DNA of 49,956 bases from a virus, in IMG/VR virus record IMGVR_UViG_3300034352_000091, positions 1 through 49,956 of that record; one strand, 5' to 3'. Made by a program: the position numbers and the translations under genes. Below, in pieces: positions 3,316 through 48,873 of the stretch (position 1 is the stretch's first letter; each line of letters starts with the position of its first letter). The notes beneath the pieces are model-generated. The model saw nothing but the letters and a program-made list of their open reading frames with translations. It searched no databases and had not been told where the DNA came from.

Positions 3316-3609
3316 CTATCGATTCATGTATGCAGTGAATCCCATATAAGCACCTACTACAGACGCTTGACCCATATAAAAGAGTCCTAATAGATCACCG
3401 AGAGCATCAACACGTTCTACAGATACTAAAGGTGTAAACAGTATACCAGTGAATACAATCATACCGAACATAGACATCCATGCCATTTTCTTTTGTGAAT
3501 CAAGTTTCTCTTCTTTAAGTTCAATGTTCATTATACGTTCACGGCGATCGACTTCTGTCTTAGTTAATTTACCATCATTATCTATATCATACTTACTGAA
3601 TATTTCCAT
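3316..3609 (-). CDS. Small membrane protein with one EF-hand loop
   Basis: A 97-residue protein. Residues 8-19 read DIDNDGKLTKTE, a canonical 12-residue EF-hand calcium loop with Asp at positions 1, 3 and 5, Gly at 6 and Glu at 12. A charged helix (about 20-42) follows, then two hydrophobic segments likely to span the membrane (about 43-64 and 70-94) ending in YMNR. An AGGAG ribosome-binding sequence precedes the start by seven bases. It is the last gene of the minus-strand tail operon, eleven bases after the tape-measure-like gene. I do not know its function. A small two-segment membrane protein could be holin-like or act during DNA entry; calcium binding is suggested by the motif only. Confidence 0.75.
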   Translation of the reverse strand: MEIFSKYDIDNDGKLTKTEVDRRERIMNIELKEEKLDSQKKMAWMSMFGMIVFTGILFTPLVSVERVDALGDLLGLFYMGQASVVGAYMGFTAYMNR

Positions 3610-3620
3610 TTATCTACTCC

Positions 3621-5174
3621 TTATAGTGTAGAGGCTGTGCGCCATGAAAGATCATTATTACTCCGACTTTTTGCTTTTGGTTTTTCATTAACATTATATG
3701 TAAATTTCGTTGAGGAGTCTGAGATATTATGCTGATAGTTTTTAACCGCATCCGACCTAGATGCCTTGTCTTGGTCATATTCTTCTTGTAGTAATTTTTT
3801 ATTTTCAGCTTGTTTCTCTGATACAGAGTTCCTTTTAATAAATTTCGGACCTGTATGTCCTGGTGTACCCCAAAGAGGGTCAACCATAGTATCCGAATTA
3901 GTTGTTACTGTAGGTACTGACTTCTTATCTAACTGTTGTGTAGAAGTATCCATTGATACCTCATTCCATCCCATCATTTTTTTAATATCATCCGGTACAA
4001 GATAATCAAGAAGTAAGTTTTTTATAAGCTTCCATGCATCAAGAACAAAATTACCAAGGAAATTGACAATACCTCCTTTACCATCTAGTCCTATTAGAAT
4101 TTGTTTAATACCGTCCATCATTTTATCAGATGCTGTACCCATCTCCTCAGGTGTTTTTGCAGAAAAGAAACCAAAAAATCCATCAATAAAAGATACAAAT
4201 CCCAGAAATGTATCAGATATTGCCACAAGCCCATTAAGCAGAGTATTACCAAGGAAATCCCCTACATGAAGTGCAAACGTGTGGAGTCCACCGATAAACT
4301 CACCAAGATTTCTTGTAAAGTTGTCCCAATATTCTAGAGCCTTACCTTCTGAAAATCGTTTTTTAAGTTGTTCTATTTTTTCTCCAAATTGCCCTGCAGA
4401 TAAGAGTTCAAGAAATCCAGCTATAGCTAATACTCCAGTAACACCTGCAAGTAACGCAAGAATCCCTTTCCCACCCTTCATTAATCCTGCCTTAGATAAT
4501 TTGGAAGTCTTTCCGGGTGTACGATTAAGCTCACTTGTTGCATTAGCTAAATCATCACTTCTCTCATTTCTAAGACGGGTCATCCTTTCAGCGGTCCTCA
4601 ACCGGTCTTCTTTAATTTCACCAGTAAAGAATTTTCTGGCCATTCTATTAGTATCCCCTTCTTCATGAAGGGCTTTCTCACGAATTTTGTTAAATACTGT
4701 TATCTCATTAACATCCTGACCTGAAGCTGCTACCTCAATAAAAATGTTATCTAGTTTTCTCTCCTGTCTTTTTGTAAGATAACTTTTATAGTCTGCTTGT
4801 TTTAGACTAGTACCTGAAAAATTATTAAAGAGTTTACGGATATCTATTAGTACATCAGCAATAATGGAAAGATTCCTATCCATTTTAACTTGTCTTTTGT
4901 CATTCATCTCTCCAAATTTCTTGCTTAGTTCCTCAGTCGATTCGTCGTGTGAAAACTCCTTGCGCCAATTGTAAACCGTTGCACCTAAGTTCAAAAGATC
5001 TGTATTATGTCTTTTATCTTCTAATTCAAAAAGTTCCTTAGAATTTGCTATTTGCATTCTATCAAAGAACTCTATAGAATCAAATGAGCTTGAGAGTTCT
5101 TTAGAATAACTCAGTTGATTAGAATTTTGTGTCTTTAACTCGTCGATTACACTATCAAAAGTAGCATCTGCCAT
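3621..5174 (-). CDS. Tape-measure-like tail protein (gp29 position)
   Basis: A 517-residue protein placed immediately after gp26 and its probable frameshift extension, the position a tape measure gene takes after tail assembly chaperones. Residues 1-220 are highly charged and helical (probable coiled coils). A Gly/Leu/Ala-rich hydrophobic segment (about 236-260) and further hydrophobic stretches (about 290-400) follow, then a polar low-complexity C-terminus. This charged-helix plus buried hydrophobic layout is typical of tape measures. T4 gp29, which sets tail length, has about 590 residues, so a slightly shorter tail is implied. AGGAAG precedes the start, and the gene begins four bases after the stop of the small upstream ORF. 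Sequence identity to gp29 is not evident, so the name rests on position and architecture. Confidence 0.6.
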   Translation of the reverse strand: MADATFDSVIDELKTQNSNQLSYSKELSSSFDSIEFFDRMQIANSKELFELEDKRHNTDLLNLGATVYNWRKEFSHDESTEELSKKFGEMNDKRQVKMDRNLSIIADVLIDIRKLFNNFSGTSLKQADYKSYLTKRQERKLDNIFIEVAASGQDVNEITVFNKIREKALHEEGDTNRMARKFFTGEIKEDRLRTAERMTRLRNERSDDLANATSELNRTPGKTSKLSKAGLMKGGKGILALLAGVTGVLAIAGFLELLSAGQFGEKIEQLKKRFSEGKALEYWDNFTRNLGEFIGGLHTFALHVGDFLGNTLLNGLVAISDTFLGFVSFIDGFFGFFSAKTPEEMGTASDKMMDGIKQILIGLDGKGGIVNFLGNFVLDAWKLIKNLLLDYLVPDDIKKMMGWNEVSMDTSTQQLDKKSVPTVTTNSDTMVDPLWGTPGHTGPKFIKRNSVSEKQAENKKLLQEEYDQDKASRSDAVKNYQHNISDSSTKFTYNVNEKPKAKSRSNNDLSWRTASTL

Positions 5175-5178
5175 ATCT

Positions 5179-5304
5179 TTACTTCCTATTTAATCTTTCG
5201 TTTTCTTCTTCTATAAAATTAATAAGCATTTGTGTATATACTTCCCTTTCCCAAGGTATCATATTCTCTAACTCGGTTAAAGAATAGTTATAATGCTGCA
5301 TCAT
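5179..5304 (-). CDS. Small ORF downstream of gp26, probable T-like frameshift domain
   Basis: From the first ATG this frame encodes 41 residues, including SLTELENMIPWEREVYTQML and a Glu-rich helical end. The pattern of a Pro-Trp-Glu-Arg-Glu helix followed by an acidic helix resembles the T half of tail assembly chaperones. The ATG has no ribosome-binding sequence. The same frame stays open upstream without a stop to the eight-T run at the end of gp26, and a -1 shift there would add 59 residues to gp26 (291 in all). I therefore think it is mainly made as a gp26 fusion, followed directly by the tape-measure-like gene, as in lambda G/GT. The frame and the open extension are seen; the frameshift is inferred. 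Confidence 0.65.
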   Translation of the reverse strand: MMQHYNYSLTELENMIPWEREVYTQMLINFIEEENERLNRK

Positions 5305-5354
5305 AGCAAAATTTGTAGAATAATAATGCTGAAGTGATGTATGAGAAAGGGTTA

Positions 5355-6053
5355 TTAAAAAAAATTGTGAATACCTTCTAATACAACATCTTGCTTATCT
5401 TTACACTTATGACAAGTAAATGTCTTCTTTAATGTCGTTTTAGGGACATTAGCTAAAAATCCTGTAACCTTTTCAAACTGATCTGAGGAAAATGATTCAA
5501 CAAATTCCGTTAATTCCGTTTCTGATGTATCGGCCGATTCATATATAATATCCCCTTCATATATGTAATCGATACAATGTGTAAGTTTAGTTATAATATC
5601 AGAACTCTCTTCCATCTTTAAAACTTCTGTAATATTGGGATATTTTAATTTAACACCTATAGTATCAGATAATTTAATATCCTTATCCTCCATAATATCT
5701 AGATTAGACACAGCTATATCAGTTTCAAGGTTAAATTTTAATGGATTTGATTCATCACATGAGCCACACTTATATGATACTTCTGATGTCTCTCCAACCG
5801 ACTTTGCTTTTAGTTGGCTGTAAATATATTCAATATCAAACATTTTTAATGTTCTAGTAGATACTACGTTATCAATAAAACATCTATCAATAACATCTGT
5901 AATAGCTAATAACATAGAATTAACATTGTCGGATTCTAAAGCCAACATTAATATCTTTTCTTCCCCCACTAAGTATGGCCTAAATTTTACTGTAGCCCCT
6001 GTAGATGGTATAGTTAATGTATAAGTTGGTACTGCTAATTTAGGTAGTGCCAT
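5355..6053 (-). CDS. 26: Baseplate hub assembly protein (gp26-like)
   Basis: A 232-residue protein of the T4 gp26 family (T4_baseplate; T4 gp26 has 208 residues), needed for assembly of the baseplate hub. It opens with a beta-rich region (LTIPSTGATVKFRPYLVGEE), typical of the family, and carries two Cys-x-x-Cys pairs (C96/C99 in YKCGSC and C214/C217 in FTCHKC), probably one zinc ribbon. AAAGGTGAA precedes the ATG. The last codons are AAT TTT TTT TAA, so the gene ends on a slippery T run. By analogy with other tailed phages, the unshifted and shifted forms would act as tail assembly chaperones for the following tape-measure-like protein. Confidence 0.8.
   Translation of the reverse strand: MALPKLAVPTYTLTIPSTGATVKFRPYLVGEEKILMLALESDNVNSMLLAITDVIDRCFIDNVVSTRTLKMFDIEYIYSQLKAKSVGETSEVSYKCGSCDESNPLKFNLETDIAVSNLDIMEDKDIKLSDTIGVKLKYPNITEVLKMEESSDIITKLTHCIDYIYEGDIIYESADTSETELTEFVESFSSDQFEKVTGFLANVPKTTLKKTFTCHKCKDKQDVVLEGIHNFF
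5358..5364 (-). promoter_or_regulatory. Probable -1 ribosomal frameshift site
   Basis: On the minus strand the heptamer T TTT TTT spans the last Phe codons of gp26, two codons before the end, directly before TAA TAA. Slipping back one base gives Leu-Ile-Thr and 56 further codons before the next stop (5179-5181). I see no strong downstream stem-loop or pseudoknot. Confidence 0.6.
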
Positions 6054-6076: not shown

Positions 6077-6775
6077 TTAAATTATGTTGCCTATTAGATT
6101 TGATGCAGTTCCAATCATACCATCCATTAAGCCTTCTTCTTCCCAATTGTCATATGTTACTGATACTGTACATCGTACTATATCATCAGATGTATTAGAT
6201 AATGTTATTGTATCAATAGCAGTAGGAAAAGCGTTCATTAACTTAACAGAATATGCTGGTATAAAATCACCTTCGGACATTTGTTGTATTTGTATATCTG
6301 TTGAATATACATTCTTATAATTCACTCTAAGTTCATCTAAATTATCAGATGGAGGTACAATTAAATCCATCCATGATTTAAAGTATTTAAGTATGTAATA
6401 ATCATTAGTTAAGAGAAATGTAAACTTAACAGTATCATCGGTAGCTAATCCATAAGGTATCTTAACAGATTTCATACCAGTTCTTCTTGTATACATATCA
6501 AAATTCCTACCTGGAATTGCACAGGATTCTGCTAGTAGATATATATCCCTAGGATCATTAAGAAATGATGTTGGTGAAAACCCTCCTCCAGTAACAACAG
6601 ATTTTAAACCTGTTTTAACTACAGATCCTATAGCATCTCCAAAAGAACCAGCACCCCCTGTAAGTAGATTTTGACCTGCGGGGTTATTCATATATATAGC
6701 AAACTTATTAGCGCGAGCTAATCCTCCTCTACGAGAGATAGTTGATTTTAATGTATCTATATTAGCTGGTAACAT
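6077..6775 (-). CDS. 54: Baseplate tail tube initiator (gp54-like)
   Basis: A 232-residue tail-tube-fold protein. RRGGLARANKFAIYM near residues 15-29, the CAIPGRNF segment, the FKSWMDLI helix and a final Y-D-N-W-E-E strand match the pattern shared by T4 tube proteins (gp19, gp54) and by the gp54 proteins of marine T4-like phages. gp54 starts tail tube polymerisation on the baseplate. A Gly/Ser-rich loop lies at about 36-66. AGAAGG precedes the start, which directly follows the stop of the upstream gene, so the two are coupled. A second copy of the main tube protein gp19 is the main alternative; placement beside gp26 and the tape-measure-like gene favours gp54. Confidence 0.7.
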   Translation of the reverse strand: MLPANIDTLKSTISRRGGLARANKFAIYMNNPAGQNLLTGGAGSFGDAIGSVVKTGLKSVVTGGGFSPTSFLNDPRDIYLLAESCAIPGRNFDMYTRRTGMKSVKIPYGLATDDTVKFTFLLTNDYYILKYFKSWMDLIVPPSDNLDELRVNYKNVYSTDIQIQQMSEGDFIPAYSVKLMNAFPTAIDTITLSNTSDDIVRCTVSVTYDNWEEEGLMDGMIGTASNLIGNII

Positions 6776-7451: not shown

Positions 7452-7898
7452 TTAGTACGTGAGTAGTTTAATACCCATCCCCTTTAATGTATGCTCAGTC
7501 CATATACAAAACTCACAGTCATTGAGTTCAGCAAAGTCACGTGCAGCTTCCCATTTAGACTGGTTCTTTACATAAGTCAAAGCCTCTTTAATATATCGTT
7601 TAGTCTTTCTGGTTCCTGTCGGAGGTTTAGTTTGCTTATCTGGTTTAATCTCTATTAGGTATTTCTTACCAGCACGAGTCTTAAAGTAAACATCAATAAA
7701 GTAACGATGCATCTTATTATCTGTTTGACACCGATAAGGTATTACCACTTCTTCAGAATTCCATTCTACTATATCAGACTGATTGTCAATCCATTTAAAG
7801 GTTTGACGTTCCCACATAGATCTATACGTTATCTTCTGAGCATCACCTCTATATTTTTTTAGATTTTTAGGTGTGAACTTCCCTTTATATGTTTTCAT
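7452..7898 (-). CDS. 4: Head completion protein (gp4-like)
   Basis: A homologue of T4 gp4 (also called gp50/65), which closes filled heads so that tails can attach. Near the N-terminus, KGKFTPKNLKKYRGD, then YRSMWERQTFKWID, DIVEWNSEEVVIPYR and HRYFIDVYFK...YLIEIKP follow the family pattern. The D-x-Y, then E-I-K arrangement is that of a PD-(D/E)XK-type nuclease fold. I chose the ATG at 7898 (MKTYKGKF, 148 residues): it matches the family start, and a further upstream start at 7925 would put the late promoter inside the coding region. A minus-strand TATAAATA at 7927-7934 gives a leader of about 20 bases. Confidence 0.85.
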   Translation of the reverse strand: MKTYKGKFTPKNLKKYRGDAQKITYRSMWERQTFKWIDNQSDIVEWNSEEVVIPYRCQTDNKMHRYFIDVYFKTRAGKKYLIEIKPDKQTKPPTGTRKTKRYIKEALTYVKNQSKWEAARDFAELNDCEFCIWTEHTLKGMGIKLLTY

Positions 7899-7904
7899 AA
7901 TTAG

Positions 7905-7912
7905 TATAAATA
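7905..7912 (+). promoter_or_regulatory. T4-type late promoter for gp48
   Basis: TATAAATA on the plus strand, 36 bases before the gp48 start at 7949. The start site near 7918 gives a leader of about 30 bases. It lies 14 bases from the minus-strand late promoter of gp4, forming a divergent pair. Confidence 0.7.
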
Positions 7913-7926
7913 TAATATAATACACA

Positions 7927-38100: not shown

Positions 38101-39738
38101 GTTCATTCACCTGATATTTTAATTACAGGAGATATGTTAGGAAACACCAAGATGATGAGTTTATCCGATGTAGTAATTGATACTCATATCAATAAAGACT
38201 CAACGTATATCAAAAAAGTAGTTAAAGAACTTGTATATGACTCTTTAAATCCAGCTCATTGGGATACAACCGTTACAAACAAACATCATGAAGGAATATC
38301 GGTCACTGATGCTCATGGTGGGGTTGCTTCAAATAAATACTATCGTGCTATGAAAATGGAACTTCTAGATGGGTTTGTATCTGGTGATACTCTGACATTT
38401 CATTACCATGACGGAGTGAATTTAAAAACTATTCCCATTTTAGTTCCGAATAATGAATCAACTGGTTTAAATGAAAGGGGTATATATCCGGCCGGAGTAA
38501 TATCACAGGATCAATACGAGGCTAATCCTGAATGGAAAAAAACAGCACGGTTTGGTGCTTCTAAATGGTTATCTCAAAAACTTAAAACAAATACTACCTT
38601 TAACAGCTATTGGGATGTAACCTTCGCAACATACTATAACGGTGATGTTGATGTTGTTCCTGTTATAGTATTTACAGAGAAAAACCCTCTTTCTGTCAGT
38701 AATACAACAAATGAACCTGACGATTCGTCACAATTGTGGAAACTTGGTCTGGAGTCTACTAGTGCTGGCACTATCGCCTCTGGATATTTTGACAATAGCA
38801 ATACTGACTCAGTAGCATATAATGAGAAATGGCACAGAGATGGTATATACGATGAAGAATTTAGTCAATTTGATATATCAAACGCAACTTCGGGGGGAAT
38901 CTATACAAACAACGCCACACCTCACTTAGTAGACAATTATATAACATCAATAGTAGATGTGAAAATTTCTGCACCTGAAATTATTAAAGATGATTTATCA
39001 GATACTCCTAGATTATCTTTAAATATGGTAGGTTCGGCGGCGGAGACTACATTAGGGACTTTCACACCATCAATATCTATTAATTCAACAACCGGTCAGG
39101 CAGCATTATCCATTGGTCTTAGTGGGCATAAGACACCTTGGACTAACAATTCCTACCTTACTTCTTGCCCAACTGGCAATAATGTGTATACGGCAAGCGC
39201 TGCCGGTCATATGACCAAAGACTCAACTGATAATCGGAGCGGGGCGTTTAGTACAGATGCCGATCCTGGTACAGCATCTGACTTAAAAGAAGGTCAAATT
39301 ATTTCTCGTAATAGTAATGGTGACTTCTATGCTAATATTATGTATGGTACAGCAACTAAAGCCCGATATGCAGATTTAGCGGAAAACTATGTTGCTGATA
39401 AACAATATGAAGTTGGTACAGTATTATCCTTAGGTGGTGAATTTGAGGTTACAGAATCAGATAGGATAATGGATTCTAGAATCGTAGGAGTCGTTTCTGA
39501 AAATCCTGCATACTTAATGAATTCTGGTTGTTCAGGTGAATTTATAGCTACTGTAGCACTAAGAGGAAGAGTACCTGTTAAAGTAGAAGGACCAGTTGAT
39601 AAAGGTGACATTATTATATCATCTGGGAGAGGTACAGGAGTTTCTAATAATAACCCTTCATTTGGTTCTATTATAGGAAAGGCTGTAGTATCTAAAACTT
39701 CTGAAGGTACTGAGTTAATAGAGGTAGTTATCACCTAA
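35140..39738 (+). CDS. Large tail fibre-like structural protein
   Basis: A 1532-residue protein. The N-terminus has the T-x-x-D-T-F-N-E-W-R-x-x-T-N-x-I pattern (residues 15-32) that begins several marine T4-like fibre proteins. The body is a run of beta-rich and helical repeats with pieces such as IVVALTKLRLRVDML. The C-terminus (about 1380-1532) carries YGTATKARYADLAENYV, then VGTVLSLGGEFEVT, NPAYLMNSG and LRGRVPVKVEGPVDKGD, a conserved head domain related to Peptidase_G2-type fibre ends; self-cleavage is possible but not shown. It ends one base inside the next gene (TAATG), so the accessory island begins in the same transcript. Confidence 0.75.
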   Translation: MSHILDKSTRINVTESDTFNEWRLKTNEIGSFIGDKHHIARYSTINYDWVPLWTDAELLSGNDENRKNSDKVPYRKALVRIKIEGMHALESTLAEDWVALKTPVTQSIIKQEIDFGGMLTEENIRVTITMHQPDEKNDDGENYYGILGTDYPYGYADGDILTIRGSSIGGVDGINNLKVKVTNTLFHDISGVTYFYISNVKISGQVVNEADYGPDYITLALAKLPPAAIYNELHQIRSDLAGEQENPDFIPFTKLTTNAQTIALAINEVNAKIQGTQGNVTLLKTIDDDLQSIPWSKFYKQYTIGENGTTSTDGYKIGDIVYVDPTTINKLDNFNGFDLGTTYFKSIAEENTVNPVAYHTSAEDELSWTHSLSENQQTILTNFSADGSPVNTNIKWLEVDGAVYSSMSLNQVLNEVNLSLGITSDNTLTALKNNHPDHITGLQNTVYHSLRNIDSYIGNYLGLKSQVYNRYVNPYRTESLDGVETNDKLYGSIGTVYGTIELPTGMSLSQTFPDPNDLTYDFSNDTDSNGLYAQWTNFVTEPYQLYTKSYHPDTGVFEFSEAEDDNIVVALTKLRLRVDMLTEEIYLTNRVNDGTAAWQWAQRITKNDQFENNFSGMHGIINILKELEDLVSPITGDSLDRGKLSRSGFKTELFHTSTWDQARPTGSKQEQELTDTLSGYEDYDSSHVEGPLWAGSTDSNNMPLGIIAGSITRILDSTGDGVYKPQYSSDPLILRTAGVTPDPTDPNTNIDFPVIDGTVDGYGVSKSADIRKLYPERIVINNGSETQVAIGYTETDRNVTNFWTNNDNSFIGQIGWVWKTSSGLSLLQQTVTDQPMNLDVKGDIRATNKIYIGPSDNIKSIDDLYLSTGIREKEASTPDKPIAAPVQNIYTKPIFREGLVVHSEKPMNDWYTYVATDENPIRIQPDAQPLQREIEDVVGAMVTDKISVTGTPSTLNMESGLNVRYDSLKAEDSNGVRSSHQATLNFEVHSPDILITGDMLGNTKMMSLSDVVIDTHINKDSTYIKKVVKELVYDSLNPAHWDTTVTNKHHEGISVTDAHGGVASNKYYRAMKMELLDGFVSGDTLTFHYHDGVNLKTIPILVPNNESTGLNERGIYPAGVISQDQYEANPEWKKTARFGASKWLSQKLKTNTTFNSYWDVTFATYYNGDVDVVPVIVFTEKNPLSVSNTTNEPDDSSQLWKLGLESTSAGTIASGYFDNSNTDSVAYNEKWHRDGIYDEEFSQFDISNATSGGIYTNNATPHLVDNYITSIVDVKISAPEIIKDDLSDTPRLSLNMVGSAAETTLGTFTPSISINSTTGQAALSIGLSGHKTPWTNNSYLTSCPTGNNVYTASAAGHMTKDSTDNRSGAFSTDADPGTASDLKEGQIISRNSNGDFYANIMYGTATKARYADLAENYVADKQYEVGTVLSLGGEFEVTESDRIMDSRIVGVVSENPAYLMNSGCSGEFIATVALRGRVPVKVEGPVDKGDIIISSGRGTGVSNNNPSFGSIIGKAVVSKTSEGTELIEVVIT

Positions 39739-40484
39739 TGATTGGTATTCTTGGTTATGGTTTTGTTGGGAAAGCAGTTGATAAAGGGTTCACAAAAACA
39801 GATAAAATAATATCGGACCCTTTATATAATGATGTATCTATCGAGGATATGATGGATACAGAATGTATATTTGTATGCCTCCCAACACCTACAGTAAACG
39901 GTAAAATAGAAGCAACAATACTATTAAATGCACTTGAGAATCTAAAAGAACTTGAGTACTCTGGTCTTATAATAATAAAATCTACTGTTCTTCCAGACCT
40001 AATTAAAGGGTACTCTAATAATATAGTATGTGTACCGGAATTCTTATCTAGAGCAACAGCTCACCATGATTTCATTAACCCTCATGTATTAATAATAGGA
40101 TCAAATTCTATTGTTACATCACAGCATACTTTAGCTATATTTAAGAAATATTCTGAGGTTTCCACAAAGAATGTACATCTAACAGATATAAAAACAGCTT
40201 GTATATTAAAGTATACTATGAACACCTTCAACGCCCTAAAAATAACATATTTAAACGAGATATATAAAGTATGTGGGATAGAGGGTATAGATTACAAAGA
40301 AATAGTATCTGTACTAGAGCAAGTACCACGGATGGGTACAGGTCTTTTTGATGTTCCTGGTCCAGATGGTAAGTATGGATTTGGTGGACCGTGTCTTCCT
40401 AAAGATGCTGAGTCTTTTGCCTCTACATACTCTATGGATTTAGTAAAAAGTATATTAGAGGTTAATTCGTTATTAAGACATTAA
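39738..40484 (+). CDS. Shortened nucleotide-sugar dehydrogenase
   Basis: A 248-residue member of the UDP-glucose/GDP-mannose 6-dehydrogenase family. The NAD-binding G-x-x-G-x-G-x-x-G motif is at residues 3-11, the PEFLSRATAHHDF motif near 100-112, the K-Y-x-x-N-x-F-x-A-x-K central helix near 158-168, and FGGPCLPKD with the catalytic Cys at 219. The family normally has about 390-450 residues. This protein stops just after the catalytic motif and lacks the C-terminal sugar-nucleotide-binding domain. It overlaps the upstream fibre gene by one base and the next gene (from its proposed ATT start) by 13 bases. It may act on a different substrate, work with a partner that supplies the missing domain, or be a remnant; the intact motifs argue for activity. 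Confidence 0.82.
   Translation: MIGILGYGFVGKAVDKGFTKTDKIISDPLYNDVSIEDMMDTECIFVCLPTPTVNGKIEATILLNALENLKELEYSGLIIIKSTVLPDLIKGYSNNIVCVPEFLSRATAHHDFINPHVLIIGSNSIVTSQHTLAIFKKYSEVSTKNVHLTDIKTACILKYTMNTFNALKITYLNEIYKVCGIEGIDYKEIVSVLEQVPRMGTGLFDVPGPDGKYGFGGPCLPKDAESFASTYSMDLVKSILEVNSLLRH
40457..40461 (+). promoter_or_regulatory. Ribosome-binding site deciding an ATT start
   Basis: AGAGG ten bases before ATT at 40472. It supports initiation of the first radical SAM gene at a non-standard codon, because no ATG, GTG or TTG lies upstream of its essential cysteine motif. Confidence 0.5.
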
Positions 40485-41461
40485 ATGTTCTATTATCAGA
40501 AGGGTGTAATTTAAACTGCTCATATTGTGGAATGGATAAGTGGTCTAAAACCACTATATCTCAAGATTCTGTAATAAATAGATTCAAAGAACTTAGACTT
40601 GAGTACCCTAATGATCGTATACGAATAGACTTTTTTGGAGGTGAACCTCTTCTCCAAATGAAGATGGTTAAGTCAATTATATTAAAGATGAAGAAAGTTG
40701 ATGATAATTATGCCTTAGCTATGCCTACTAATGGGATATCTCTAACACCTGGAATACTAGATTACCTAAAAAAAGAAAAAGTCTCTGTATCTCTCTCATT
40801 CGATGGCTTATGGCAAAACGATAGGAGACCTATTAGAGATTCCAATCTATCTTCTTTAAATGTACTGTACGCTAAACGAGAGCTGTTTTCTGGATTAAAA
40901 TGTCATTCTATGATATCCGGATCTGACTATAATTTACTAGAAAATCATTTATATATAACTCAAAATTTTGGGATGAATCCTGAACTAACATTAGTTAGGG
41001 ATAGAGGGACATGGACACCAGAATCAGTTAAACTTCTTCAGATCGGTATTAACGAAATTTATGAGTGGTACAAAAATAATCTCTCTGAAGATATGCCTAA
41101 TTTTATATTATTCTGGCTTCGCGATATATTAAGATATCATTATAAAGGATTTACAGTTGAAGGATGTGGTGTAGGAAGAGATCTTCATGCATTAACAGAG
41201 ACTGGAGAGTCCGTTACATGTGACAGATTTGCTGGGGATAAAGAAGCAGTTGAGAAGATAAATGAGTTTTACTCTATGCCTGAATGCTCAACTTGTCGTG
41301 TAAAGAATTATTGTCATAAAGGTTGTATGTATGAGCAAATTAAGTCGAATGGTCCAATACCCGAACTTTGTGATATATATAAATATTGTTATGATAAGAC
41401 AAAAGAAATACTACCCGTGATACCTAAAGATATAATAAGGAGAGAATTGAATGATTCATGA
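40472..41461 (+). CDS. Radical SAM/SPASM protein 1
   Basis: A radical SAM enzyme with a full SPASM C-terminal domain. The SAM-cluster motif GCNLNCSYC lies at residues 11-19 when translation starts at the ATT at 40472 (329 residues); starting at the first ATG (40532) would remove it, so the earlier start must be right. A GGEP motif (FFGGEPL) follows. The C-terminus has Cys-x12-Gly-x4-Cys (CGVGRDLHALTETGESVTC), then CSTCRVKNYCHKGC (C-x2-C-x5-C-x3-C) and a last Cys in ELCDIYKYC, the classic SPASM arrangement for two auxiliary [4Fe-4S] clusters. Such enzymes mostly modify peptides or proteins (anSME, PqqE, ranthipeptide maturases). It overlaps the genes on both sides. Confidence 0.87.
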   Translation: MKTLNVLLSEGCNLNCSYCGMDKWSKTTISQDSVINRFKELRLEYPNDRIRIDFFGGEPLLQMKMVKSIILKMKKVDDNYALAMPTNGISLTPGILDYLKKEKVSVSLSFDGLWQNDRRPIRDSNLSSLNVLYAKRELFSGLKCHSMISGSDYNLLENHLYITQNFGMNPELTLVRDRGTWTPESVKLLQIGINEIYEWYKNNLSEDMPNFILFWLRDILRYHYKGFTVEGCGVGRDLHALTETGESVTCDRFAGDKEAVEKINEFYSMPECSTCRVKNYCHKGCMYEQIKSNGPIPELCDIYKYCYDKTKEILPVIPKDIIRRELNDS

Positions 41462-41681
41462 TATTACTGATATTAATCAGATTAATACAAGATTATTAAA
41501 GACTGTTACACACCTATTAGATGCGTCTAAATATCTTTCGGATATACCAGAATTTCAAGAAGAATCCTATAAAATTGCTCTTCTGGCAAAATGTTTTATT
41601 GATGTAGTCGAACCTCAAAAAGAAAAAATTACAGAAGAAACAATTAATTCTATACTAGATGAGATATTAAATGCTCAATAA
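41451..41681 (+). CDS. Small helical protein between two radical SAM genes
   Basis: A 76-residue, nearly all-helical protein I do not recognise, with a strong AAGGAGAG ribosome-binding sequence. It overlaps the preceding radical SAM gene by 11 bases and the next by 11 bases. One cysteine (CFIDVVE) is present. It does not show the beta-rich winged-helix pattern of PqqD-like RiPP recognition elements. Its place between two SPASM genes suggests a partner or chaperone role, which is inference only. Confidence 0.72.
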   Translation: MIHDITDINQINTRLLKTVTHLLDASKYLSDIPEFQEESYKIALLAKCFIDVVEPQKEKITEETINSILDEILNAQ

Positions 41682-42807
41682 TAAAAGACAACAATTTACG
41701 TTTGAAATTACAACTACTGCTCTCTGTAATATGAATTGTACATATTGCTTTGAAGGTCTAAAAACAGATAAGCGTACTTTAAACAATGTACAGGTTTCTG
41801 TATTAAAGTCTAAAATAGAGGAAATATTAAAATCCAATTGGTTTTTAAGAGATTATGGAGTCCTTAATATATCATTTTGGGGTGGAGAACCTACATTAAA
41901 TGGACCATTAATTGTTGATATGATGAATACATTCGAGCTAAATGATTCTGTAACCTATCACATATATACTAATGGACTAGATAGAAAGAAACTTGATTAT
42001 GTACTTGATTCAGTATCTACAGATAAACTTGCAATTCAGGTATCTTGGGATGGTGATGTCATTAATAAAAAGTATAGAGTTCAGGGAGTAGATAAAGATA
42101 CAACTGCACGAGTACTTAATAATTTAGAGTATCTAATAGAAAGGGGTATAAACGTCTCAATGAAAGCTACAATACCTCTAGAGTCTATGGACGATATTGA
42201 AGAAACATGGGATTCATACAAAACTTTATATGACAAATTAGGGTCTAGAGCTAATATATCTTATGCCCCTACAATAGATTATGTAAATGAATTACCTGAG
42301 GAGACCCAAGAAGCTTCAATAGCTACATTTAGATCAGCTATGATTAGAGTAGCAAAAAAGGAATTAGAATTTTATAAAGAGCATAATCATTTTTTATGCT
42401 CTTGGTTTGATGGTAATGAGCAGAAAGTACATTGTTCCTCGGGTGCTAATATGGTTGCTATAGATGTAACGGGTAAGTCTTATGCGTGTCATGGTTCATT
42501 ATATTCTCCTAATAAAGAATCAATGGGTTCAGGATCTATAACAGATGCTGAGTGGGTTAAGAATTTAGGTTCTGAAACTAAAAAATATAAAAAGGCTATT
42601 AAAACTGTACCTGAAACATGTGTAGATTGTGTTGCAACAACTTGTATGATTTGCCCTGTATCTTCCTTAGATAATTCAAAAAAATCAGATTTTATGGTTA
42701 GGTGGACTGATAGATATATAAATAATATGTGTGGGTATTTTAAAACATTTGGTGAAATAGACCGAGCAGTTGTAACCAAAATAGACAGAGAAAGAGAAGA
42801 GGCATAG
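41671..42807 (+). CDS. Radical SAM/SPASM protein 2
   Basis: A 378-residue radical SAM protein. The SAM-cluster motif is CNMNCTYC (C19, C23, C26), followed by a GGEP motif (FWGGEPTLNG) and the Y-T-N-G strand. The C-terminus has a SPASM-type set: CSSGANMVAIDVTGKSYAC (Cys, 12 residues, Gly, four residues, Cys), then CVDCVATTCMIC and a last Cys in NNMCGYF. The second set is C-x2-C-x4-C-x2-C rather than the classic C-x2-C-x5-C-x3-C. By family, it should act on a peptide or protein. It ends four bases before the cysteine-tailed protein, whose ribosome-binding sequence lies inside this gene, so the two are probably co-translated. Confidence 0.87.
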   Translation: MLNNKRQQFTFEITTTALCNMNCTYCFEGLKTDKRTLNNVQVSVLKSKIEEILKSNWFLRDYGVLNISFWGGEPTLNGPLIVDMMNTFELNDSVTYHIYTNGLDRKKLDYVLDSVSTDKLAIQVSWDGDVINKKYRVQGVDKDTTARVLNNLEYLIERGINVSMKATIPLESMDDIEETWDSYKTLYDKLGSRANISYAPTIDYVNELPEETQEASIATFRSAMIRVAKKELEFYKEHNHFLCSWFDGNEQKVHCSSGANMVAIDVTGKSYACHGSLYSPNKESMGSGSITDAEWVKNLGSETKKYKKAIKTVPETCVDCVATTCMICPVSSLDNSKKSDFMVRWTDRYINNMCGYFKTFGEIDRAVVTKIDREREEA

Positions 42808-42810
42808 ACT

Positions 42811-43599
42811 ATGGCAAATACATACGGAACATCAACCTTTAAACCAGAAGATATGTGGCATACATCTTCGACCGGTGGAAACGTTTATAAAACAGTCAGT
42901 TCTACATGTAGCGGTCATAGAGCTAATAATTCCCACACCGATGTAGACTGGAACCTATTTGGGACTGACACAATAATCAGTGCAGATGATTATAATACTA
43001 TATACGATGCTGTTCAGGCAGAACTAGACGAATGGTTAGCGTTTAAAGACTACAAAGGTACAAAGGCATATAATGATCTTATAAGTTACAAAATGATAGG
43101 CTCCAGAAAAACAAAAAATAGCGTAATAGACGATCGAGATCTTGAATCTATCCATTCTATATTAGAGGCTATGCTTGGAGAAAGAGGAGCAAAACATACA
43201 AACACTAATTATGGAAATAGCGGTCAAGCTAACCGAATAGGTACAGGATGGAAAGACAAAAATCAAAATTCACCCACATCACAAAAGACAAGTGCTAATA
43301 GAGTTAAAAGGACTAATTCTACCTCTACTGCCATTAAACAAGGTGCTGTTAAAGGGGCGGGGCTGATTGAAAAAACCTATAGTTCACAATTTGGTAATAA
43401 TATAGAAGGTACGCTTATTCAAAACGAATTCTACAATCCAACTGGTGCAGGTAAGTTTGATGCAACAACACTCTGGTCAGACAATTCCATTGAGGAAAAA
43501 TTTAACCGATGTCGTAGTAATTGTATTTGCGATTCTGATTGTGCCTGTAATGCTGTTTGTAATTGTAACAATAACTGTGATTGTAATTATACTCAATAG
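42811..43599 (+). CDS. Protein with a C-terminal cysteine hexad repeat, candidate radical SAM substrate
   Basis: A 262-residue protein I do not recognise. Residues 1-130 look globular (TDVDWNLFGTDTIISADDYN, then helices). Residues 130-195 are Asn/Thr/Ser/Lys-rich and probably flexible. A short structured part follows, then the tail: nine of the ten cysteines lie in the last 29 residues, at 234, 238, 240, 244, 246, 250, 252, 256 and 258. Four successive hexads follow C-x-C-[D/N]-x-x (CICDSD, CACNAV, CNCNNN, CDCNYT). AGAGG precedes the ATG. It sits directly after SPASM gene 2. I infer a modified substrate, as in cysteine-rich RiPPs of the ranthipeptide kind. A metal-binding tail (metallothionein-like C-x-C) or an iron-binding fibre tip are alternatives. 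Confidence 0.82.
   Translation: MANTYGTSTFKPEDMWHTSSTGGNVYKTVSSTCSGHRANNSHTDVDWNLFGTDTIISADDYNTIYDAVQAELDEWLAFKDYKGTKAYNDLISYKMIGSRKTKNSVIDDRDLESIHSILEAMLGERGAKHTNTNYGNSGQANRIGTGWKDKNQNSPTSQKTSANRVKRTNSTSTAIKQGAVKGAGLIEKTYSSQFGNNIEGTLIQNEFYNPTGAGKFDATTLWSDNSIEEKFNRCRSNCICDSDCACNAVCNCNNNCDCNYTQ
43510..43584 (+). repeat. 18-base coding repeat of Cys-x-Cys hexads
   Basis: The coding sequence of residues 234-258 repeats with a six-codon period around TGT-NNN-TGT-AAT/GAT. The bases differ between units while the amino acid pattern holds, which points to selection on the protein rather than recent DNA duplication. Confidence 0.75.
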
Positions 43600-43611
43600 G
43601 AGATGAAATAA

Positions 43612-44226
43612 ATGATGATATATAATATGGCACTAGTGACAGATAAAGGAACACATTTTGAGATAAATGGGGTTACAACTAACGTAGCCTCTAATATAAA
43701 AAACAAAGAAGAGCACTATCTTAATCTTTCTTCAAAAGCAGCAGAAATTATTAAGGAAGCATTAAACTCTGGTAATAATAGAATTAATGTCTATAAACCA
43801 TTAAAGTCTATGGAAGTTTTACCGGGAGAAGTTATTATAGAGGATATAGATCCAGAAGATATCAGAAATGTTAAATCGTCAGAGATTAAAAGAATCAGGG
43901 TCCTAATAACACCCGAACTCGCTTCCATTTCAGGTATAGCACTCTATTCATGGATTATGCTTAATAATGAACTAAATTCTAAAGGATACTTTATATATGA
44001 TGGTAATAGAGAAGAAGTATACCTAAGTATATTAGAAACTGGTGATGATGTTTTAATTACTAAATTAGAAGAATATTTAAATTATAAAGATGAGATTGCT
44101 AGAGTAGCTCAATTAAATTCTAAATTTTCTAATATTATTAAAGAAATAATGACTCTTACAGATAAAGATGAGATTATTGAGAAAGCTAACAAATTTATAG
44201 AAAATTATATGAAGTTAAATGATTAA
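43612..44226 (+). CDS. Hypothetical protein after the cysteine-tailed protein
   Basis: A 204-residue protein I do not recognise. AGGAG precedes the start by seven bases. The N-terminal third mixes beta strands and one helix, the middle contains a Pro-rich acidic stretch (VIIEDIDPEDIRNV), and the C-terminal third is helical and charged (KDEIIEKANKFIENYMK). No cysteines, membrane segments or catalytic motifs are seen. It lies between the candidate substrate and the glycosyltransferase-like pair, so a partner or scaffold role is possible but not shown. Confidence 0.72.
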   Translation: MMIYNMALVTDKGTHFEINGVTTNVASNIKNKEEHYLNLSSKAAEIIKEALNSGNNRINVYKPLKSMEVLPGEVIIEDIDPEDIRNVKSSEIKRIRVLITPELASISGIALYSWIMLNNELNSKGYFIYDGNREEVYLSILETGDDVLITKLEEYLNYKDEIARVAQLNSKFSNIIKEIMTLTDKDEIIEKANKFIENYMKLND

Positions 44227-44240
44227 TAATGTAATTTATA

Positions 44241-45011
44241 ATGAGCAAGCGAATTGGTGTAGTATATAAATGGCAAATACATAATAAGATAAATGGATCT
44301 TTATTCTATGCATTTGAGTATGCAGTATACCTCAAAACTGAGCTATACATAGTAGGAATCACAAAAGAAGATTTAAATTTAGTTAACAATATCTTCAGAG
44401 CAAAATACTCTATTTCTCTGAAGAATATCAAATCAATTAATGTAACTAATTTATATAGTCTTGATCTCCAGAAAACTCTATTAGTTGATATTAAATCGTT
44501 CTATGCAGTAAAAGAATTTCTTTCTGGTGATAGTCATGTATTTTCTAATGAACCTCACTCTATGTTCAGATATAAGAACAATAGAAAAGTGACATACTAC
44601 GGTTCATATGATTATCAGAATTATGATATATTCAATTATCTTAAATTAAACTTTTCTATATTTAAAGAGATACAAAGGTCAGGAAACAAGACTTTTGTAT
44701 CTGGTCCTCTGGACGGTCTATCTGAGTATTCATCTACGGATAACGTTATAAAAAAGGAACATCATTCTGGTCGTGGCGATCTATTCGAATTAATATCTTC
44801 ATTAGTATATGTACACACCTCAAGAGATACTAATAATCGAATAATCCCTGAAGCCTTTTACTATAATAAGAAAATTAATATTATTGAGCAAGCATCTAAT
44901 ATAATAGATTCCGTAACACTTAGATATAATGATATTAAAGACAAAGGTCTTTTTAATTATACATTATCCCGTGATGATATGATGATACAAGGAATGTTAA
45001 ATAATGAGTAA
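44241..45011 (+). CDS. Glycosyltransferase-like protein A
   Basis: A 256-residue protein. Near residues 194-213 it has DTNNRIIPEAFYYNKKI, which matches DCSPRFIAECKHYNKQV in the next gene. This D-x-x-x-R-x-I-x-E-x-x-x-Y-N-K pattern resembles the end of the nucleotide-sugar-binding half of GT-B glycosyltransferases, where an acidic residue holds the sugar nucleotide. The N-terminus (GVVYKWQIHNKINGSLFYAF) could be the first strand and glycine loop of such a fold. The function is inferred from this limited resemblance. No ribosome-binding sequence is visible. It overlaps the next gene by eight bases. Confidence 0.6.
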   Translation: MSKRIGVVYKWQIHNKINGSLFYAFEYAVYLKTELYIVGITKEDLNLVNNIFRAKYSISLKNIKSINVTNLYSLDLQKTLLVDIKSFYAVKEFLSGDSHVFSNEPHSMFRYKNNRKVTYYGSYDYQNYDIFNYLKLNFSIFKEIQRSGNKTFVSGPLDGLSEYSSTDNVIKKEHHSGRGDLFELISSLVYVHTSRDTNNRIIPEAFYYNKKINIIEQASNIIDSVTLRYNDIKDKGLFNYTLSRDDMMIQGMLNNE

Positions 45012-45960
45012 AATATTACAATTACCTAAAGAATATGAATTATGGTTGACTTATTCATGGAGTAATAACAACCACGGCATATGTGGTCATACTTTTGAAG
45101 TCATTGATTACTACCATATATTAAAAAACCATTTTAAAGTTGGTATATTATTAGCTGAAGATATAGATATGAATATGTTTGTTCAGGCTATTCAAGAGAA
45201 ATACGATTTTAATACTAATGAACTTGAAGATATAAAGCGAGATACTCTTTTTAAAAAGAGACCTAGACTAGTATCAGGATCTAATATTATCTTTACTGAT
45301 GGTGGTGTATTATCAACAAAGGATAGTACATTACTATTTGATAATATCTTTCATATGGCTTGTGGTGATAAAGAAATAAAAGATAATACAAAAGAAAATG
45401 TGTGGATACTTCAAGATGATAGAGTTTATGATCCAGTAGTTCTCAATGGTATTAATTACAAAAAGAAGATACTATTTTCTAGATTAAAACGACTTAAACG
45501 GCCTGCATTATTCCCTGGCTGGTTAAGAACTATTATGCTATATTCTACTAAGAATTGTCGTAATATCCCAGAAGCTCAAATTAAAAAAATATCTAATAAG
45601 TATAAAGGATATCATATAATGGTGCTTACTAACTCAGAAAATAGAGGTGAAGATTCTGAGTGGATTAAATATTATGAAGTACCTATAAAGGACTTATTTA
45701 ATCGGTTTATTATGTATTATTATACACCAATAGAAAGAAAACATGATTGTTCTCCTAGGTTTATAGCTGAGTGTAAGCATTATAATAAACAAGTTGTATA
45801 TGATTCTAAAATAAACGATGAGTATCTTAAAGAGGACTTAGGGTTAAAGTATAGAATGCAAGATATTGAAGAGGACTTTGATTCATTAAACCTAGAGGAA
45901 AATGATGACATAATTAATATTATTAAGAATATTATATATAATGAGCCCAATAAACTATAA
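45004..45960 (+). CDS. Glycosyltransferase-like protein B
   Basis: A 318-residue protein related to the preceding one by overall layout and the shared D-x-x-x-R-x-I-x-E-x-x-x-Y-N-K motif (about residues 254-272). The N-terminal part (SWSNNNHGICGHTFEVIDYY) resembles the glycine-loop region of GT-B enzymes, and the C-terminus is acidic and helical. No transmembrane segment is present. It starts inside the stop region of the previous gene and overlaps the next radical SAM gene by 20 bases. A glycosyltransferase role for a virion target or a sugar-peptide is plausible. Confidence 0.6.
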   Translation: MSKILQLPKEYELWLTYSWSNNNHGICGHTFEVIDYYHILKNHFKVGILLAEDIDMNMFVQAIQEKYDFNTNELEDIKRDTLFKKRPRLVSGSNIIFTDGGVLSTKDSTLLFDNIFHMACGDKEIKDNTKENVWILQDDRVYDPVVLNGINYKKKILFSRLKRLKRPALFPGWLRTIMLYSTKNCRNIPEAQIKKISNKYKGYHIMVLTNSENRGEDSEWIKYYEVPIKDLFNRFIMYYYTPIERKHDCSPRFIAECKHYNKQVVYDSKINDEYLKEDLGLKYRMQDIEEDFDSLNLEENDDIINIIKNIIYNEPNKL

Positions 45961-46987
45961 CATTGTATCACATCATAAGATTCAGTCTGAAAATAAAGAC
46001 AAACTCTGTACAAGAGCTAAGTTAGACACAGGTACTCATTGTAATTATGACTGTGAGTTCTGCTATTACGGAGAACAACTACTCATTCGTACTGATACTG
46101 ATGTTATAAAGAAACGTATTGATTATATCTGGGATACCGGTATGGAAGAAATAGACTTTTCTGGTGGTGAATCTTCTATACATAAAGACTTCTTTGCTCT
46201 AATAAAGTATGCTAAAGATAAAGGCTTTTCTAGTATATCTACATTATCTAACGGACATAAATTCTCTAAGATTGACTTCATGCGTAAAGCTTATAATGCA
46301 GGTCTAACAGAAATATTATTTTCTGTTCACGGTTCTAATGGAAGTATACATGATAAAATAGTAAGACGATCAGGGGCATTTAAACGTATTGTTAAAGCTA
46401 TTAATCTCTGTAGAGAAGTAGGTATTAAAGTTCGTATCAATACTACTGTTACTATGGAAAACTTTACTGCTTTATCAGAATTCTCTACACTAATTCAAAG
46501 TCTTGATGCTCATGTATTTGAGGTTAATTACTTACCCCTAAATCATTGGGATGACGCTAAGTCACAGATACCTTTAGATTATAATGTAGTATGTACTGAA
46601 ATAAAAAAGTCTATTGACATACTTAAATCAGCAGTTAAAATAATTAATGTTAGATATACTCCATACTGTTATATGGAGGGATATGAGAAATATGTATGCT
46701 CTACATATCAACATATATGGGATGTCTATGATTGGAATATTGGAGTATATGATTACTCTGTTAATCCTCAGGTATATAAAGAAGATCCTTTAAAACATCT
46801 ACTACTAGTAGCTAAAGAAAATAGAAATCAAACATATATGAAACCTAAATCATGTATGGGATGTAAGTATTTTTTTATATGTGATGGTATTGAGACTGAA
46901 AATAACTCTACTCTACCCTTAGCAATAAAAGGTGAATTGATATATAATCCTATACATTATCGTAAAGGATATTATGAATCTATTTGA
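45941..46987 (+). CDS. Radical SAM protein 3
   Basis: A 348-residue radical SAM protein. The SAM-cluster motif CNYDCEFC is at residues 34-41, followed by DFSGGESSIHKD (Ser in place of the usual Pro of GGEP), STLSNG and a typical barrel region (LFSVHGSNGSIHDKIVRRSG). The C-terminus holds extra cysteines: C in YTPYCYM, C in YVCST, and SCMGCKYFFICDG, a C-x2-C-x5-C set that could bind a SPASM- or twitch-type auxiliary cluster. The start overlaps the previous gene by 20 bases without a ribosome-binding sequence, so translation is probably coupled. The substrate is unknown. Confidence 0.85.
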   Translation: MSPINYNIVSHHKIQSENKDKLCTRAKLDTGTHCNYDCEFCYYGEQLLIRTDTDVIKKRIDYIWDTGMEEIDFSGGESSIHKDFFALIKYAKDKGFSSISTLSNGHKFSKIDFMRKAYNAGLTEILFSVHGSNGSIHDKIVRRSGAFKRIVKAINLCREVGIKVRINTTVTMENFTALSEFSTLIQSLDAHVFEVNYLPLNHWDDAKSQIPLDYNVVCTEIKKSIDILKSAVKIINVRYTPYCYMEGYEKYVCSTYQHIWDVYDWNIGVYDYSVNPQVYKEDPLKHLLLVAKENRNQTYMKPKSCMGCKYFFICDGIETENNSTLPLAIKGELIYNPIHYRKGYYESI

Positions 46988-48035
46988 ATTAATACCAACA
47001 GATGAGTATCCTACATTCGACTTTAAAGTTACATTAAAACCCTCATTTAGATGTAATCAAGCCTGTTGGTTCTGTACTGAATATGATAATAATTCGTATG
47101 AATGGTCAAAAGAGGATTGTAATAAAGTATTAGATAAGCTTGATAATGTATTAAAACCATATCAATCAATCTTTATATATTTCTATGGTGGTGAGCCTAC
47201 TCTATCTAAGCATTATGAGTATCTACATTATGAGATTACTAGAAGACACAGACATAAAAAATTATTTATACAGACACAAACTAATGGTTCTATGAAGACT
47301 GAGAGGTTAATAACTTTTCTTAATACATTAGAATTATATAAAGATCATACACTAGATATATCAACTTCAGTACATCTTAATAAACAGAAGATTGGAGATC
47401 TAATAGATAAGCTTAAAATATTAAGAGAGTATAATGTATTGGGTATTATATTCCCGTCTACTGAATACCTGAATGAAAAACAGTTTATGGAAGAGCTTAA
47501 CTTACTGATTTCAAATTTCCCTGATAAAGTTAAAATGAGATTTACTGAAGTAGGTTCTGCAGCTATTAATACTACGGAGGGACAATTATACCCTACAGAT
47601 CAAGGTGATATTAAATCATTTGAATTTAGATATTTTACACAGAAATATCCTTTCCTACTTAATTATCTTGAAGAAGGGTTCAATTTTCAAGTAGATGATA
47701 AAGTTGTTAACTTTTCTTATGTATCAGCTAATGATATACATAAACAAGTGAGATTTATGAAGTGTGAGTGCGGCACTAAGAATCTTGTTATAGACCATAA
47801 CCTAAAGATGTATAGGTGTAATGACGACTTTAAAAATAATATAGGTATACAAGAGATATCAGAAGATATAGAGATAAAGAATAAGTATTGTCTTAACAAA
47901 GTATGTTATGATGGACTAGAGTTTAAGAAATGGAAAGAAGTTATAGTATATCAAGAAAAAGAAATACCTGAGATATGCATGCCATGCTCATCATCATATT
48001 GTTCGTATAATTGTAAGAGGGATAATAATGAATAA
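46974..48035 (+). CDS. Radical SAM protein 4
   Basis: A 353-residue radical SAM protein. The SAM-cluster motif CNQACWFC is at residues 27-34, with a GGEP motif in FYGGEPTLSKHYEYLH and the QTNGS strand after it. The C-terminus is rich in cysteine: CECGTKNLVIDHNLKMYRC, a Y-C-L-N-K-V-C pair, and CMPCSSSYCSYNC near the end (C-x2-C-x4-C-x3-C), a SPASM-like arrangement of auxiliary cluster ligands. AAAGGA precedes the start, and the gene overlaps both neighbours (14 and 8 bases). The low similarity to the other radical SAM proteins here suggests a different reaction or target residue. Confidence 0.85.
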   Translation: MNLFELIPTDEYPTFDFKVTLKPSFRCNQACWFCTEYDNNSYEWSKEDCNKVLDKLDNVLKPYQSIFIYFYGGEPTLSKHYEYLHYEITRRHRHKKLFIQTQTNGSMKTERLITFLNTLELYKDHTLDISTSVHLNKQKIGDLIDKLKILREYNVLGIIFPSTEYLNEKQFMEELNLLISNFPDKVKMRFTEVGSAAINTTEGQLYPTDQGDIKSFEFRYFTQKYPFLLNYLEEGFNFQVDDKVVNFSYVSANDIHKQVRFMKCECGTKNLVIDHNLKMYRCNDDFKNNIGIQEISEDIEIKNKYCLNKVCYDGLEFKKWKEVIVYQEKEIPEICMPCSSSYCSYNCKRDNNE

Positions 48036-48873
48036 AGATTGTATTGATACACTAGAAATTGATGTAATTGATGCCTGTAACCTATCATGCCCTTTATGTA
48101 ATAGGAATGTATTAAAGTCTAAAGATGGTTATATCCCTCTAGAGGACTGGATCTCTATTCTTGATCAGTACAAATATCTAAGGGCTATATACCTCATTGG
48201 AACTAGATCTGAACACACATTATATCCAGAATTTTTAAACCTCATGAGGTACTTTAAGAGTAGAGGATTATCAATTATTATATCGACTAATGGTTGTACT
48301 AATAAATTAAATTTTTGGTCTGAATTAAAAGATATACTACAAGTCGAAGATGAAGTTCGATTCGCCGTTGATGGTATTACCCAAGATATATATGAGCAAT
48401 ATAGAGTTGGTGGTAATCTAGAAAAATTAATGAATAATCATAAAGCTTTTAAATCAGAGAAAGATAATGATATAATGCAATATATTAGATTTGAGCATAA
48501 TCAACATGAAGACATTACTGAGTTCCTTCAGCAGTTCTCTGGATTAAGAACTATTAATTCCTCTTTTGAAGGTAACCATGACGGTTCTACTGTTAAACAA
48601 ACTCCTAAGGATTCTAAGAAATATGACTTAATTACAAAAGTTATACGGAATAGAAAACCAAATATAAGCTGTGTAACTAAGGGTAATATGCACTTTATTA
48701 ACCACAGAGGTCAGACTTCTCCTTGTTGTCATTATAATGAAGATGTTGTACTTCAGGGGGGTGAATGGGATGGGACATATGAAGATATTGAAGCAGCTAA
48801 ATTTGACTTTTGTACAATAATATGTGATAAGTTTTGTACGAATCTGTTAAAGTCGTTAGATATAGAATTATGA
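48028..48873 (+). CDS. Radical SAM protein 5
   Basis: A 281-residue radical SAM protein. The SAM-cluster motif CNLSCPLC is at residues 17-24. It lacks a GGEP motif; the corresponding strand reads IYLIGTRSEHTLYPEF, while IIISTNGC keeps the next conserved strand. The C-terminus has INHRGQTSPCC and FCTIICDKFC, a short SPASM-type cysteine set. An AGAGGG sequence precedes the start and the gene overlaps radical SAM 4 by eight bases. Its stop (TGA) overlaps the next ATG by four bases. The substrate is unknown. Confidence 0.82.
   Translation: MNKDCIDTLEIDVIDACNLSCPLCNRNVLKSKDGYIPLEDWISILDQYKYLRAIYLIGTRSEHTLYPEFLNLMRYFKSRGLSIIISTNGCTNKLNFWSELKDILQVEDEVRFAVDGITQDIYEQYRVGGNLEKLMNNHKAFKSEKDNDIMQYIRFEHNQHEDITEFLQQFSGLRTINSSFEGNHDGSTVKQTPKDSKKYDLITKVIRNRKPNISCVTKGNMHFINHRGQTSPCCHYNEDVVLQGGEWDGTYEDIEAAKFDFCTIICDKFCTNLLKSLDIEL

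Follow-up and report, generated by a model that had tools for sequence, protein, structure and literature searches.

In the viral DNA analysed here, a 49,956-bp fragment of a marine T4-like virus from IMG/VR that is referred to as the window, the gene resembling T4 gene 26 very probably gives rise to two tail assembly chaperones, with gp26 itself acting as the short chaperone, while a minority of ribosomes would slip by -1 on the heptamer T TTT TTT at its end and thereby yield a long chaperone of 291 residues. The locus is a newly found and unannotated member of a kind that has already been published. A 2016 review treated T4 as the exception ("except T4") to a G-T frameshift that is otherwise conserved widely among long-tailed phages (PMC5009743). 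Tail assembly chaperones of T4-like phages have since been identified by Vladimirov, Gautam and Davidson (2022, Virology 566:9-15; as cited in PMC12846349 and PMC10885494), and the passage in which PRFect credits that study refers to T4-like phages in which a short chaperone gene is accompanied by a fused long one (PMC10885494). The T4-like chaperone frameshift is known in kind, its main points having been published in 2022, while the upstream Shine-Dalgarno-like stimulator described below may be one detail not reported before.

The gp26 gene (5355..6053, minus strand) encodes the short tail assembly chaperone (TAC-N) of 232 aa, and its 3' end reads ...GTA TTA GAA GGT ATT CAC AAT TTT TTT TAA TAA on the minus strand, with the zero-frame stop TAA at 5357-5355. 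The eight-T run at this end (5364-5357), the only run of at least eight T's on either strand of the window, contains the slippery heptamer T TTT TTT (5358..5364, minus strand), which follows the X XXY YYZ pattern and is assigned as the -1 slip site from its sequence and the conservation of its register. As the original prediction had read it, gp26 ends AAT TTT TTT TAA on this run, and a -1 slip enters an open frame that continues as LITLSHTSLQHYYSTNFAMMQHYNYSLTELENMIPWEREVYTQMLINFIEEENERLNRK for 59 codons (5358-5182) before the stop TAA at 5181-5179. This extension (5179..5358, minus strand) is assigned as a gp51-like TAC-C domain based on its matches to phrog_634 and to the C-terminus of phrog_150, its conservation and its helical model. 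The fused product of gp26 and the extension, the long form (TAC-NC), would comprise 291 aa, with GIHNFFLITLSH as the predicted junction peptide spanning the slip. An open -1 frame in one AT-rich window is weak evidence when taken alone, the probability of 59 open codons being ~0.009 in this single window, yet the extension goes beyond chance because of its homology to gp51 and its conservation in 113 loci.

Family searches place both parts of the fusion among T4 baseplate proteins. gp26 matches PF12322 T4_baseplate in Pfam (E=4e-56, 190.5 bits, cut-off 24.5) and phrog_150 "baseplate hub" in PHROG (E=3e-58). The 59-residue extension by itself hits gp51 in PHROG (phrog_634 "baseplate hub assembly catalyst", E=2.5e-24) as well as the C-terminus of phrog_150 (E=4e-4), and its profile aligns to the C-terminus of T4 gp51 at 91% probability. 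The tape-measure-like gene that follows (3621..5174, minus strand; 517 aa) has its own Shine-Dalgarno sequence and an ATG at 5174; the extension does end just before it, as had been claimed, yet the gap from the extension stop is four bases and not five; in every other respect the earlier description of the site proved accurate. No Pfam match above the cut-off and no PHROG match was found for the 517-aa product, and its tape-measure identity therefore rests on its position, third in the order gp26, extension, 517-aa gene. The same place directly after gp26/gp51 is seen in P-SSM2, P-HM1 and R10Z, while in phiM12 similarity to tape measure proteins is annotated for a gene that lies one ORF beyond this place. 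Just upstream of gp26 lies a gene for a tail tube protein (gp19/gp54-like; 6077..6775, minus strand; phrog_45 E=1e-29, PF23849 E=1e-6), and further neighbours include a DNA end protector (gp2) and a gene in the gp4 position at 7452-7925, which together place the locus in a T4-like tail cluster. No near DNA match to the window was found among GenBank phages. Just past the tape-measure-like gene, a 97-aa ORF (3316-3609, minus strand) displays two hydrophobic stretches and an EF-hand-like calcium-binding loop, DIDNDGKLTKTE, with a Pfam EF-hand match below the cut-off (E=1e-4).

Structural prediction using AlphaFold2, with 63 aligned sequences from the window and IMG/VR as input, produced a gp26 model with a pLDDT of 94. 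In a structural comparison of gp26 residues 1-95, the top rows were 3fgx (Z 8.3), the HK97 chaperone 2ob9 (Z 7.2, the match spanning residues 1-86) and B. subtilis YqbN 3klu (Z 7.1), and the next row fell to Z 3.8. Both 3fgx and YqbN are presumably prophage proteins of the XkdN-like chaperone type. While Z scores of 7-8 are middling taken singly, all three top rows are of chaperone type and stand well above the rest, and gp26 is on this account predicted to have the tail-assembly-chaperone fold of the HK97 gp13 type. Residues 88-228 weakly resemble zinc ribbons (Z 3.8), and the extension is predicted to be helical (pLDDT 81). Foldseek by itself listed 2ob9 at E=0.25; the GTP cyclohydrolase matches from the PDB that topped Foldseek were discarded as meaningless, their rmsd being near 20. 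A sequence search against solved structures returned no homologue of gp26 or of the extension.

The slippery run is conserved far beyond the window. A scan with gp26 gave 26 IMG/VR loci, and a second one with the extension alignment yielded 80 from a pool of at least 599 relatives, 79 of which had not been obtained before; with eight named phages added, the extension was located in 113 loci. The named phages are Prochlorococcus P-SSM2 and P-HM1, Synechococcus S-WAM1 and ACG-2014e, Vibrio R10Z (Schizotequatrovirus), Sinorhizobium phiM12 and phiM9, and Methylophilales phage Melnitz-3. The second scan looked for two conserved peptides of the extension and hence did not select for the T run. In all 113 loci, TTTTTT encodes the Phe-Phe start of the extension in the -1 register, and the expectation that related phages keep the run together with the -1 frame is thus borne out. 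The heptamer is TTTTTTC in 59, TTTTTTT in 19, TTTTTTA in 11 and TTTTTTG in 2 of the 91 loci in the non-redundant set (at most 90% identity, a cut that only approximates independence of the loci), and the zero-frame stop lies 0-2 codons past the heptamer in 85 of them. In addition, a T run with an open -1 frame is found in Stenotrophomonas Moby, Aeromonas CC2, Rhizobium RL2RES and Acinetobacter SH-Ab 15599.

The first Phe codon is always TTT and the codon before it always ends in T, whereas in the remainder of the same genes TTT makes up 68% of Phe codons and T occupies 72% of such third positions. Judged by these frequencies, the T run is retained beyond amino-acid need, and the conserved register would arise by chance with a log10 P of ~-31 from codon use elsewhere, if the loci are independent. 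Substitutions in the -1 frame concentrate at codon position 3 (2617, 1625 and 4707 at positions 1, 2 and 3) even in the 17 codons that precede the usual first ATG, a pattern by which the -1 frame is taken to be coding from the slip onwards. The frameshift is absent from the GenBank records inspected, none of which joins gp26 to a second ORF, the latter being listed separately or absent; the surmise that it is not a standard annotation for T4-like gp26 was correct.

The same fusion would also be obtained if the polymerase, and not the ribosome, slipped on the eight-T run and left mixed mRNAs. Eight T's suffice for polymerase slippage in some systems, and the run is unique in the window. Yet in most relatives the T's number only six, with C, A or G as the next base (59+11+2 of 91), the X XXY YYZ register is exact, as slipping by tandem tRNAs requires, and a Shine-Dalgarno-like stimulator acts on ribosomes, not on polymerase, making transcriptional slippage a very unlikely source of the fusion.

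About as improbable is an independent small gene gp51 with an internal start in the -1 frame and translation coupled to the end of gp26, although a separate gp51 CDS is annotated in P-SSM2, P-HM1, R10Z, phiM12, Melnitz-3 and phiM9, and the window does have a pair of ATGs at 5304/5301. These first ATGs of the -1 frame are situated 20-21 codons into the extension, and the conserved domain starts ~18 residues before them. As had been noted for the ATG of the downstream ORF, no ribosome-binding sequence accompanies them: pairing energies in the window reveal no Shine-Dalgarno sequence at 5304/5301 (+3.4 and +1.4 kcal/mol), compared to -6.9 for gp26 and -4.7 for the tape-measure-like gene. No ATG, GTG or TTG precedes extension residue 8 in 67 of the 91 loci, leaving 24 with some possible early start codon, and in 69 the frame reaches its first ATG at residue 20 or 21. 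For the first ATG from residue 8 onwards, the anti-Shine-Dalgarno energy averages 0.08 kcal/mol, whereas random positions average -1.51 and gp26 -4.53. Based on these start-codon and Shine-Dalgarno counts, an independent internal start for the extension was rejected as a candidate. Moreover, no gp51 CDS is present in the GenBank records of S-WAM1, ACG-2014e and CC2, and a separate gene would leave the slippery run kept in 113/113 loci without a reason. Run-less relatives with an independently started small gene account for none of the 113 loci, and T4, which does lack the run, has a full-length gp51 that is itself an in-frame fusion. Finally, while homopolymers are error-prone and T4 gp51 is an in-frame long form, the probability that a sequencing or assembly error has broken a single long gp26 gene is negligible, as it is already refuted by 113 loci, drawn from isolates as well as metagenomes and mostly carrying TTTTTTC, that show the identical break.

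Sequences that may promote ribosomal -1 slipping were sought on both sides of the heptamer. Upstream, the Shine-Dalgarno-like AGAAGGTA (5372..5379, minus strand; -4.2 kcal/mol in the window) ends 7 nt before the heptamer and is a likely stimulator. In E. coli dnaX, -1 frameshifting is known to be stimulated by an element of this type. Across the loci, the mean anti-Shine-Dalgarno energy reaches its minimum, -5.3, where the 8-mers end 7 nt upstream of the heptamer. The best pairing upstream of the slip is -5.59, compared to -4.43 +- 0.14 for synonymous redraws drawn from each gene's own codons, with 0 of 200 redraws as strong, while five control stretches of the gp26 gene displayed no Shine-Dalgarno-like excess over such redraws. 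Downstream, neither a common RNA structure across the loci nor a stable one in the window (0.0 kcal/mol) was found. A conserved downstream stem-loop or pseudoknot was accordingly rejected as the stimulator; the comparison with synonymous shuffles reached only P=0.03, and a control region gave P=0.003. Strong hairpins directly past the slip site are seen in P-SSM2, P-HM1 and one further locus (L028, L031 and L024; -15.6, -12.0 and -13.8 kcal/mol, respectively), whereas the window has none. Stimulators may differ by lineage. It could be speculated, at slightly less than even probability, that in single-gene T4-like phages the conserved internal Shine-Dalgarno-like sequence ending ~7 nt upstream of T TTT TTN, and not a common downstream RNA structure, tunes the frameshift and sets the short:long ratio, while T4-type phages duplicated the gene and erased the slippery run.

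As proposed here, gp26 would be the short tail assembly chaperone, equivalent to lambda gpG. In a minority of ribosomes, the P- and A-site tRNA-Phe on TTT TTT would slip back one base, probably aided by the nearby upstream AGAAGGTA and by the stop codon that adjoins the heptamer, and these ribosomes would read 59 more codons to produce the 291-residue long chaperone, equivalent to lambda gpGT. By analogy with lambda, the common part may bind the tape measure protein encoded next, while the extension may recruit tail tube subunits; the short:long ratio and the partners of the chaperone forms are likewise argued from lambda. We infer the slip, how often it happens and what the two forms do from the anatomy, homology and conservation of the locus and from the predicted fold of the short form. 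The initial suggestion of a G/GT-type order of chaperone, extension and tape measure gains support from the gp51 homology, the run and -1 frame in 113/113 loci, the lack of a plausible internal start in most loci, the Shine-Dalgarno-like signal and the gp26 fold.

Elsewhere in the window, five radical-SAM-like proteins are encoded on the plus strand within 40532-48873 (40532-41461, 41671-42807, 45941-46987, 46974-48035 and 48028-48873), with Pfam Radical_SAM E-values from 7e-6 to 7e-20. Their best NCBIfam models, every one scoring far below cut-off, include peptide maturases such as those of PapB and HxsC type. A 262-aa protein flanked by radical-SAM genes (42811-43599) has a Cys-rich tail, CRSNCICDSDCACNAVCNCNNNCDCNYTQ, and no family match. 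The radical-SAM genes are bracketed by genes for a short nucleotide-sugar dehydrogenase-like protein (39738-40484, plus strand; TIGR03026 E=3e-35, below cut-off, 248 aa compared to 413) and a family 2 glycosyltransferase (48834-49433, plus strand). The region 40532-48873 resembles a cluster for maturing modified (RiPP-like) peptides, here carried by a T4-like phage.

With the frameshift, the lambda-type rule of a short and a frameshifted long chaperone before the tape measure would extend to marine T4-like phages. It would also account for cyanophage records in which "gp51" has no good start or is missing, and would allow genes 26 and 51 of T4, long assigned to hub assembly, to be read directly as short and long tape-measure chaperones. 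The earlier study of T4-like chaperones reportedly names T4 genes 26 and 51 and is said to find frameshifting kept in several T4-like groups. The practical value lies in annotation and in a stimulator that can be tested.

Compared to lambda, the window differs in its slippery site, which is T TTT TTN and not the G GGA AAG of lambda. As in lambda gpG/gpGT, HK97 gp13 and other -1 frameshifted tail chaperones (Xu, Hendrix and Duda 2004), a short form with a predicted -1 extension immediately precedes a putative tape measure gene, and the HK97 chaperone fold is common to the N-terminal part of gp26 in its predicted structure (Z 7.2). Unlike the lambda and HK97 chaperones, the gp26 of the window has an extra C-terminal half that is weakly zinc-ribbon-like. 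The T4-like tail assembly chaperones of Vladimirov, Gautam and Davidson (2022) are the same kind of gene as that of the window. Ackermannviridae phages (PhaxI, phiMAM1) and Vibrio phage K356 also have a comparable -1 frame after gp26, yet the run is only TTTTC (ATT TTC, GTT TTC, CTT TTC) and not T TTT TTN, making it a less standard slippery site. The stretches that show this gp51-like -1 frame after gp26 in the Ackermannviridae and the Vibrio relative are 1501-2262 (L119), 1339-2079 (L121) and 1501-2307 (L123).

In T4, gp26 (208 aa) and gp51 (249 aa) are paralogs that both belong to PF12322, and their genes, 26 (short) and 51 (long), are separate and on opposite strands, whereas the window has one gene with a -1 extension. 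Only one gp26-like place was found in the window, and no second full-length copy with an in-frame extension occurs within the 49,956-bp fragment. T4 gp51 carries the extension in frame (phrog_634 E=1e-23); in the alignment, T4 gp26 ends where the short form ends (GLKEFFELL), while T4 gp51 tracks the frameshifted form through YSL...MIP.ER. Where the window has the slippery run, T4 gp26 reads GAG TTC TTT GAG, and Citrobacter CF1 is like T4. With 26 and 51 being separate paralogs and the run being absent, T4-type phages appear, from these alignments, to have replaced the frameshift by gene duplication. If the G/GT interpretation is right, T4 encodes as the paralogs 26 and 51, without the run, the two products that the window would make from a single gene by a -1 shift.
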